A DNA stretch of 64,000 nt from contig NZ_JADMSO010000001.1 of assembly GCF_015560805.1 (NCBI RefSeq), forward strand, positions 372,001 through 436,000. The letters run 5' to 3'. The notes under the pieces were generated by a model that was given only the letters and a program-made list of their open reading frames with translations, was not told the origin of the DNA and made no database searches. Below, piece after piece: positions 43,531-45,599 of the stretch. How positions within the stretch are numbered: the first letter of the stretch is position 1; each line of letters begins with the position of its first letter. This stretch comes from Mediterraneibacter glycyrrhizinilyticus. Its GTDB lineage: Bacteria; Bacillota; Clostridia; Lachnospirales; Lachnospiraceae. Both the position numbers and the translations under genes were made by a program.

Positions 43531-44328
43531 TCAGCGGTCTTCGTATAGAAATTGGATATGATCGCTTGCTTCCCGGAAGTCCAGTACTAACTTTTCCTCC
43601 CAGATGCGGACAGGGATCTGGCTGTCGAATCCGTAAATGATCGGGAAATTGTTGTGCTCAAAATCGTAAACAAGCACCAAGCGTTTCTCCGGATCGACGA
43701 CCCAGTACTCCCGCACTCCGGCATTCATATACTTGTTCAGCTTGATGATGGAATCTTTCTTCCGGCTGGACGGGGAAAGGATTTCCAGGACAAAGTCCGG
43801 CGCGCCGTACACACAGCGGTGGACGACTTTTTTGCGGTCGCATACGATCACTACATCCGGCTGAAGCATGGTGCGGTCGTCGCAGTCCAACTGTACGTCG
43901 ATCGGCGAGACGATCGGAAGACAGCTTCCTTTTTCTTTCATAACATGATTCATAAATTGTGTGAAAAGGAAGCCGGTGAGCAGCTGGTGAACGGAAGTCG
44001 GGGCGGACATATCGTAGATCACGCCGTCGATCAGTTCCACACGGATGTCGTCCGGAATGGCATAATAATCTTCCAGTGTATAGTCTCCCTGCTTTTTGAC
44101 GAAATAGGGGGCGGAAGCTTCCCGGATCATGTCGGTAGGCTTCTTCGGTTCGTCAAAAGAAAGCTGAAATACTTTCTCCAATGCGCGCAGCGTATCGTAG
44201 CGCGGTGAGGATGTGGAGCCGTTGAAAATCTTCTGGACTGTGCCCAAAGGGACGCCGGATAACTCCGCAATCTGTGAATAGGTGTAGCCGATCTCTTTCT
44301 TTTTCTCTTTCATTTCCTGAATGGTCAT
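43531..44328 (-). CDS. XRE helix-turn-helix fused to a Uma2-family (DUF820) nuclease-like domain
   Basis: A 265-residue fusion. Residues ~1-55 are an XRE-type helix-turn-helix (YTYSQIAELSGVPLGTVQKIFNGSTSSPRYDTLRALEKVF). Residues ~80-255 match the Uma2 / DUF820 PD-(D/E)XK-like fold: YAIPDDIRVELIDGVIYDMSAPT, LQPDVVIVCD and APDFVLEILSPSSRKKDSIIKLNKY, which keep the Glu, Asp and Glu-x-Ser-Pro positions of the putative active site. Uma2 proteins are predicted nucleases, common in cyanobacteria and mobile regions. The fused DNA-binding head suggests site-directed action or autoregulation. No partner gene is adjacent. Function not established. Confidence 0.85.
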   Translation of the reverse strand: MTIQEMKEKKKEIGYTYSQIAELSGVPLGTVQKIFNGSTSSPRYDTLRALEKVFQLSFDEPKKPTDMIREASAPYFVKKQGDYTLEDYYAIPDDIRVELIDGVIYDMSAPTSVHQLLTGFLFTQFMNHVMKEKGSCLPIVSPIDVQLDCDDRTMLQPDVVIVCDRKKVVHRCVYGAPDFVLEILSPSSRKKDSIIKLNKYMNAGVREYWVVDPEKRLVLVYDFEHNNFPIIYGFDSQIPVRIWEEKLVLDFREASDHIQFLYEDR

Positions 44329-44476
44329 AAAATCCCTCCCGGTAAAATTTAAAAATCTCCTGTGAATACTATAACCATATAATAACCGAAAAAGAATAAA
44401 AAATCAACCGAAAACAAGTAAAAAAATAACCAAAAAGAAAAATGGAGAGGAAAAGAAAGGAAAAATAAAATCCAAG

Positions 44477-44506
44477 TCACCTTTTGAATATCCGGCGCGT
44501 GTATAA
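44477..44506 (+). promoter_or_regulatory. Probable ECF-sigma autoregulatory promoter
   Basis: TCACCTTTT (44477-44485) and CGTGTATAA (44498-44506), with 16 bases between ACC and CGTG, resemble ECF sigma promoters (AACC-16-CGTCTA). The same layout precedes the second ECF gene at 54604. Confidence 0.55.
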
Positions 44507-44528
44507 GGTGAAAGAGGAGGATAACCTT

Positions 44529-44990
44529 ATGGAGAAGAAACATATCGATGACATAATAAAGAAATATGGAAATCTGCTTTACCGCGCGGTATATGTTCAG
44601 GTCGGAAACCGGCACGATACGCAGGATATCCTTCAGGAAGCGTTCATCCGCTATCTGGAAAAGGCTCCTGTATTTGCAGATGAAGAACATGAAAAAGCGT
44701 GGCTTTTGCAGGTGACACATCATTTGTGCCTTGATTTTTTCAGATTCAGGAAACGGCACAGTTATCTGGAACTGGGCGAGATCGAAGAACTGATCGCCGG
44801 TCCGGAAGATGAGAATATATTGCGGGAATTATTTGCCCTCCCGGCGCAGCAAAAAAGTATTCTTGTCCTTTATTATCTGGAGGGGTATCGGATCAAAGAG
44901 ATTTCAGGGATCACAGGGTTATCCGAAAACGCCGTGAAGAAACGGCTGCAGCGCGGGAGAGAAGCGCTGCGGGCGAAGTTGACCGAGTAG
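44529..44990 (+). CDS. ECF-type RNA polymerase sigma factor
   Basis: A 153-residue ECF sigma factor. Region 2 is YRAVYVQVGNRHDTQDILQEAFIRYLEKAPVFADEEHEKAWLLQVTHHLCLDFFR (shown in part), and region 4 is LPAQQKSILVLYYLEGYRIKEISGITGLSENAVKKRLQRGRE. It directs RNA polymerase to a stress regulon. The start at 44529 has GAGGAGG upstream. The next gene, 17 bases on, is a membrane protein with an anti-sigma-like N-terminus, so the pair is probably a sigma/anti-sigma module, autoregulated from the ECF-like promoter. Confidence 0.9.
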   Translation: MEKKHIDDIIKKYGNLLYRAVYVQVGNRHDTQDILQEAFIRYLEKAPVFADEEHEKAWLLQVTHHLCLDFFRFRKRHSYLELGEIEELIAGPEDENILRELFALPAQQKSILVLYYLEGYRIKEISGITGLSENAVKKRLQRGREALRAKLTE

Positions 44991-45007
44991 GGAAAGGAGC
45001 GAAAACA

Positions 45008-45514
45008 ATGACAGAAAAACAATTAAAATCTGTGATGGATTCTATTACGATGCCGGAGGCGATGGCGCAGGAACTTCGAAAAAACGTAAGCGGAAAGAAA
45101 CAAAAAAACCGTACATTCCGGTATCCGAAAATTGCCGCGGCTGTGATAGCGGGGGCGTTGATCCTGTCGGTCGGAACGACCTCTTATGCCGTCTATCAGG
45201 CGAAAAATCTCCGGGTATTTTTTGAAGCGGATGTGACGGAAGAACAGCTTAAGAAAGCGGGGGAGGCATTCCGGGCGATCGAGGGTGTTTCCGAAGTGGA
45301 ATATGTGCCGGGAGAGCAGGCGTGGGCGGATTTCCAGGCAGAATATTTTGCGGACGATCCGGAACTGGCACAGGAATTTGACGAAAATCCTTTGGCGGAC
45401 TCTTTTAACTATAAATTAACGGTTGAATTGAGCGCGAATACAAAGGAAGTGCGGGAGGCGATCGAAAATGTAGAGGGAGTCCGGATGGTCTCCGATCTGA
45501 GTGAATTGAAATAA
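45008..45514 (+). CDS. Membrane protein with FtsX-like extracellular domain, putative anti-sigma factor
   Basis: A 168-residue protein. Residues 1-40 are cytoplasmic and could bind the sigma factor. One membrane helix spans ~41-63 (KIAAAVIAGALILSVGTTSY). The external part, ~68-165, resembles the FtsX extracellular domain: VFFEADVTEEQLKKAGEAFRAIEGVSEVEYVPGEQAWADFQAEY, then NPLADSFNYKLTV and VREAIENVEGVRMV. In FtsX that domain binds cell-wall hydrolases. Placed after an ECF sigma gene, this suggests an anti-sigma sensor that reads the cell-wall hydrolase or envelope state. Role inferred from context and topology. Confidence 0.7.
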   Translation: MTEKQLKSVMDSITMPEAMAQELRKNVSGKKQKNRTFRYPKIAAAVIAGALILSVGTTSYAVYQAKNLRVFFEADVTEEQLKKAGEAFRAIEGVSEVEYVPGEQAWADFQAEYFADDPELAQEFDENPLADSFNYKLTVELSANTKEVREAIENVEGVRMVSDLSELK

Positions 45515-45554: not shown

Positions 45555-45599
45555 AAACGGGAGAGAGCAGACGAAAATATTGCTTTCTCCCGTTTCGTT
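45555..45599. terminator. Bidirectional terminator between the ECF pair and deoC
   Basis: AAACGGGAGAGAGCA (45555-45569) pairs with TGCTTTCTCCCGTTT (45581-45595) with one mismatch, and both sides have A/T tracts suitable for the convergent genes. Confidence 0.8.

Follow-up and report, generated by a model that had tools for sequence, protein, structure and literature searches.

A candidate membrane anti-sigma factor with an FtsX extracellular domain encoded beside an ECF sigma factor gene in Lachnospiraceae

Pairs of an ECF sigma factor and an anti-sigma factor are one of the main routes by which outside signals reach bacterial genes, and many of their sensor domains have no known ligand. ECF sigma factors contain regions 2 and 4 without region 3 and are about 150–200 amino acids long. 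FtsX has a permease domain with four membrane helices and is paired with FtsE; the known partners of its extracellular domain are PcsB, EnvC, and RipC. In the pneumococcal protein, a helical lobe of this domain binds the coiled coil of PcsB (PMC6355983).

We compared a two-gene locus, in which an ECF sigma factor gene is followed by a gene for a small membrane protein (here called the partner), with these systems. Like the partner, RsiV, which belongs to sigmaV in Bacillus subtilis and Clostridioides difficile, is a single-pass protein with its N-terminus inside, encoded beside an ECF sigma gene and beginning with a short cytoplasmic head. Signal peptidase cuts RsiV at a site after the membrane helix only when lysozyme is bound, and RasP finishes the anti-sigma factor (PMC6066255). 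The partner has such a site just past its membrane helix in the form of a sequence motif, and we propose that its outer domain, as in RsiV, is a receptor for a wall-cutting enzyme. The two differ in their domains: RsiV has DUF4179 and a domain that binds lysozyme, and none of the 26 members of the partner family matched either of them in Pfam, whereas the outer domain of the partner is the Pfam domain FtsX_ECD; the head of the partner resembled the RsiV model at an E-value of 0.07 only. RsiP, the anti-sigma factor of sigmaP in Bacillus thuringiensis, is likewise cleaved by signal peptidase and responds to beta-lactams; the abstract on it mentions no FtsX domain. With FtsX of the FtsEX–PcsB/CwlO/RipC systems the partner has the fold and the lobe residues of the extracellular domain in common, but it has one membrane helix, no permease helices, and no linked FtsE, is encoded beside an ECF sigma gene, and falls into a separate domain clade.

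The sigma factor operon and its promoter

The window is the 64,000-nucleotide stretch of Mediterraneibacter glycyrrhizinilyticus DNA that we analyzed, and the host genome is 3.0 Mb. On the plus strand of the window, a gene for a sigma factor of 153 amino acids (44529–44990, ATG at 44529) is preceded by a ribosome-binding site, AGGAGG, read directly from the sequence (44515–44520), and its stop is separated by 17 bases from the start of the gene for the 168-amino acid partner (45008–45514). The original prediction of an ECF sigma factor and an FtsX-domain protein lying 17 bases apart was correct; the start it had assigned, 44477, falls in the -35 element of the promoter and is not the beginning of the sigma gene. 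The sigma protein matched Sigma70_r2 (E 6e-12) and Sigma70_r4_2 (E 9.4e-16), both above the Pfam cut-offs, and is an ECF sigma factor by these matches and its length. Downstream of the two genes lies a hairpin (45555–45595) with 15-base arms, one G-T pair, and an 11-base loop, likely a bidirectional terminator between the operon and a converging deoC-like gene; it was found by direct reading, as a simple hairpin scan allows loops of 3–8 bases only and misses it. Divergent from the operon, on the minus strand (43531–44328), is a gene encoding an HTH_3 DNA-binding domain fused to Uma2 (putative restriction endonuclease).

The predicted ECF-type promoter (44476–44503, plus strand) consists of the -35 element GTCAC (44476–44480), a 17-base spacer, and the -10 element CGTGTA (44498–44503). 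Of the 26 distinct loci encoding such a pair, 25 had GTCAC-N17-CGTRTA or a close variant (23 strict, 2 loose) ahead of the sigma gene, with distances to its start ranging from 53 to about 213 bases; shuffled upstream regions gave 0.005 strict matches for the whole set. A conserved promoter in this position is the arrangement expected of an ECF operon that regulates itself. Within the window genome (G000), the promoter of the sigma gene itself was the only convincing genome-wide site. Two further sites with 2 mismatches were discarded as unconvincing, one being antisense within the S41 peptidase gene and the other antisense to the neighbors of the short gap that contains it. When four carrier genomes were searched, the strict matches beyond the own promoter, taken together, did not exceed a reversed-pattern control, and a 3-mismatch search of carrier genomes returned fewer matches than that control.

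The FtsX extracellular domain and its family

The match of residues 68–161 of the partner to Pfam FtsX_ECD spanned the full domain (68.8 bits, cut-off 23.5; E 6.5e-19), and all 26 aligned family members matched FtsX_ECD as well. A search of the PDB with the family profile returned almost only FtsX. The outer domain (residues 66–163; 45203–45496) was modeled confidently by AlphaFold, and a Foldseek search with this model gave FtsX entries as its best twelve matches. After structural re-alignment, the top eight were FtsX chains: the best, 6tpi_B, reached Z 12.8 over 97 residues at 3.4 Å, and others included 8ymc_C (Z 11.5), 4n8n (Z 11.0), and 6mk7 (Z 10.4), whereas the best non-FtsX chain stood at Z 9.2, the level at and below which an unrelated ferredoxin-like background was found. 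The outer domain of the partner is a genuine FtsX extracellular domain; its predicted assignment, for which a missing structural match would have been fatal, was borne out by sequence, profile, and fold.

The outer domain is conserved more strongly than the head (mean identity within the family 55% vs 39%), and dN/dS values of 0.07–0.18 place it under purifying selection. Given dN/dS values of 0.07–0.16, an FtsX_ECD match in all 26 members, and an ECF sigma gene immediately upstream in all 28 loci that were fetched, whose outer flanking genes vary, we exclude a chance association. Columns conserved both in the family and in FtsX of Lachnospiraceae comprise S101, E104, A105, W106, F109, Y113, F124, N127, P128, L129, S132, N134, and Y135; many of them sit in the lobe region and the adjoining NPL segment (residues 101–135; 45308–45412), which correspond to the hydrolase-binding region of FtsX (PMC6355983).

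Besides that of the window, about 25 distinct loci encode the same partner protein, giving 26 distinct members. In a scan of genome contigs, the single protein as query yielded no match, and a profile search of the species collection from a three-row alignment yielded 24 further full-length loci. A sample of 397 Lachnospiraceae genomes contained four carriers besides the window genome, with some of the strains already represented in the collection; among 391 genomes of the class, the only carriers were the window genome and one already known; and among 398 genomes of the phylum, the window genome was the only one. In the genus of the window, the remaining 11 genomes had true FtsX only and no partner with an FtsX extracellular domain. 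From these counts the distribution, as far as sampled, is patchy and confined to Lachnospiraceae or close kin.

With the family profile, members scored 184–276 bits and FtsX proteins 68–102 bits, with no overlap. In a tree of 131 domains (26 distinct members and 105 from FtsX), a branch supported at 99/97 set the members apart from FtsX. With all 26 on the same side of it, the tree fits a single, old capture of an FtsX domain. The divergence of sigma factor and partner was correlated (Mantel r 0.86–0.88; 0 of 5000 permutations), a correlation that shared descent also yields. One of the member loci (L129:963–1947, in G363) encodes a divergent partner with an FtsX extracellular domain on a long branch; its sigma factor lies outside the main sigma clade, among other ECFs, and the GTCAC-N17-CGTRTA promoter is missing. 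Possibly the sensor was captured a second time here, or the sigma factor was exchanged.

The surroundings of the pair include two recurrent neighbors. About eleven loci (L049, L050, L051, L054–L057, L061, L063, L065, and L069) have in common a second ECF operon, upstream on the minus strand, which comprises a sigma gene, a gene for a membrane protein of ~300 amino acids without a Pfam match, and in several cases a gene for a vWA/YfbK_C protein; no such operon is present in the window. Downstream, on the minus strand, a gene for a membrane protein with a transglutaminase core is frequent (L049, L050, L053, L056–L058, L061, L065, and L069), mostly followed by a glycoside-hydrolase-like gene.

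Membrane topology and the cytoplasmic head

The partner has a sole hydrophobic segment, residues 42–60 (45131–45187), flanked by a net charge of +6 on its N-terminal side and 0 on its C-terminal side, which places the N-terminus inside. Hydropathy and positive-inside charge indicated one membrane helix in 25 of 26 members, so that the predicted single-pass topology with a cytoplasmic head held. Directly past the helix is a signal-peptidase-like site, S59-Y60-A61 (45182–45190); this small residue-x-Ala site is S-x-A in 25 of the 26 members and V-Y-A in the remaining one. The motif may also be no more than the cleavage site of an ordinary signal peptide. The window genome encodes an S2P protease as well as two signal peptidases of type I.

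The head (residues 1–41; 45008–45130), the candidate sigma-binding part, is positively charged; it is conserved across the family, where it has 36–59 residues, and it carries a conserved motif of the ITMP..(M/L)...L..(N)C type (ITMPxxM...L..N in the family alignment). The head matched no curated anti-sigma model above its cut-off. For two relatives, a stretch comprising the head and the membrane helix matched NCBIfam anti-sigma models at E-values of 3e-4 and 7e-4, short of the curated thresholds, and most others had no match. AlphaFold predicted two helices in the head, with a pLDDT of 57–62 when the partner was modeled by itself. In Parablautia intestinalis, sigma factor and partner are naturally in frame, and when the two were modeled as one read-through chain the head helices reached a pLDDT of 77–79, although both target and alignment differ from those of the partner-alone model; the higher value is only suggestive of a contact with the sigma factor.

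Another locus of P. intestinalis (L211:7723–9348, minus strand; G264:C32) contains an ECF sigma gene followed by a gene for a protein of 388 amino acids. Its sigma factor is sister to the clade of paired sigma factors, its promoter is similar, and the first 55 residues of the 388-amino acid protein align with the family head, although weakly (27% identity; hhalign E 0.00095, probability 22%). In contrast, its outer part of ~330 amino acids belongs to no Pfam family and gave no match to FtsX. The protein is likely an anti-sigma factor with another sensor, as far as such an alignment can tell, and the combination of a similar head with a different outer domain suggests that sensors have been swapped on one anti-sigma chassis.

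Function of the partner protein

The partner is encoded next to and together with the sigma gene, under a common promoter upstream of the latter, and consists of an N-terminal cytoplasmic head, a single membrane helix, and an outer domain, as expected for a membrane anti-sigma factor. We consider it highly probable that it acts as the anti-sigma factor of the adjacent sigma factor, as had been predicted; this part of the original prediction is well supported, though indirectly, by the obligate gene order across the family, the conserved promoter, the co-varying divergence, the conserved head, and the sister system. The suggested sensing of wall-hydrolase status has one basis, the retained hydrolase-binding lobe.

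In the explanation that we favor, and to which we give an even chance as a whole, the two genes form a self-contained, autoregulated unit with an exapted FtsX domain as outer sensor, a hydrolase-type ligand, and a release of the RsiV type. At rest, residues 1–41 would hold the sigma factor at the membrane. Outside, the FtsX-like domain would bind its ligand through the same helical lobe as FtsX does, the likeliest ligand being either the FtsEX–hydrolase assembly or an M23 wall hydrolase of the PcsB/CwlO type, bound at its coiled coil. Binding or loss of the ligand would expose the S-x-A site to signal peptidase, and intramembrane proteolysis of the RasP type would then free the sigma factor, which would activate its own promoter, GTCAC-N17-CGTRTA, and further targets. 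Taken by itself, RsiV-like cleavage, for which RsiV serves as the model, is a proposition with evenly balanced prospects.

A hydrolase or hydrolase complex as the ligand is a more tentative proposal. We favor a hydrolase or the FtsEX–hydrolase assembly because the lobe residues have been kept, the domain is under purifying selection, and the window genome encodes four PcsB-type coiled-coil proteins (C25:204787, C7:16254, C25:72882, and C8:5947) against a single FtsX, so that most of them would lack a dedicated FtsX partner. The lobe residues may, on the other hand, have been kept for folding. No hydrolase gene adjoins the operon in the window, and carriers did not encode more PcsB-type proteins than non-carriers. 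More tentatively still, an FtsX domain as anti-sigma sensor might couple transcription directly to the occupancy of the FtsX-binding surface of a hydrolase, with proteolysis of the RsiV type and an ECF response setting in when hydrolase is free or has not been engaged by FtsEX.

The main rival to a hydrolase ligand is an anti-sigma factor whose FtsX-like domain senses something else. Candidates are the state of the membrane or its lipids, antimicrobials that act on the envelope, and host molecules directed against FtsX, for example the chemokine CXCL10. In the last case the domain would be a decoy FtsX that reports the attack, as RsiV, a lysozyme receptor (PMC4183432, PMC5014341), reports lysozyme. 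CXCL10 kills Bacillus anthracis partly via FtsX (PMC4959661, PMC5406473), the assembly titles of some carriers name animal gut sites, and the common lobe would suit a decoy equally well. However, CXCL10 is known to act on the FtsX of B. anthracis alone, not on that of Lachnospiraceae, and the sequences contain no pointer to a host ligand. We regard a non-hydrolase ligand as possible, though rather unlikely.

That the partner is no anti-sigma factor at all appears improbable. It would then be an effector under the control of the sigma factor, cleaved by signal peptidase, secreted or tethered to the membrane, which competes with FtsX for the hydrolase and so restrains wall cutting. The retained hydrolase-binding lobe, the S-x-A site directly past the hydrophobic segment, and co-expression from a sigma-type promoter would agree with such a protein, but a conserved head of 36–59 residues far exceeds the n-region of an ordinary signal peptide, the sister system keeps a similar head while changing the outer domain, and the operon encodes no other anti-sigma candidate. 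Nor do we give much credence to an FtsX-like domain that is a relic of gene fusion, an inert extracellular anchor with regulation taking place in the cytoplasm or at the membrane. The lack of a ligand gene linked to the operon would accord with this very improbable alternative, whereas purifying selection on the outer domain, its better conservation than that of the head, and the kept lobe residues speak against it.

NCBIfam FtsX models are the best partial matches of the partner and automatic annotation could use the name FtsX, but we reject a truncated or mis-annotated FtsX with near certainty, since the 168-amino acid protein has no permease domain (no PF02687 match) and no further membrane helices, forms its own clade with separate profile scores, and cannot be a broken ftsX when a complete FtsX is encoded elsewhere in the genome (in the gene order ftsE, ftsX, a coiled-coil M23 hydrolase, and an S41 peptidase). 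As the best curated matches are to FtsX, automatic annotation could miss an anti-sigma factor of this kind. The original prediction knew of no described anti-sigma factor with this domain, and we found none in the open-access full text searched, where the one paper that mentions both the FtsX extracellular domain and anti-sigma factors only cites an FtsX title; the main ECF reclassification lies outside that text, and a prior mention there is possible. ECF/anti-sigma pairs and FtsX domains are each well known by themselves.

The two genes give some gut Lachnospiraceae a probable switch: the partner, with its FtsX outer domain, probably keeps the sigma factor bound at the membrane. Because the partners of the FtsX domain are known, the hypothesis on its ligand is unusually concrete. 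If it is true, a second copy of the hydrolase docking site, placed on an anti-sigma factor, would let the cell watch its own division hydrolases; the pair would be a dedicated sensor of division hydrolases, and FtsX_ECD would join the list of anti-sigma sensor domains.
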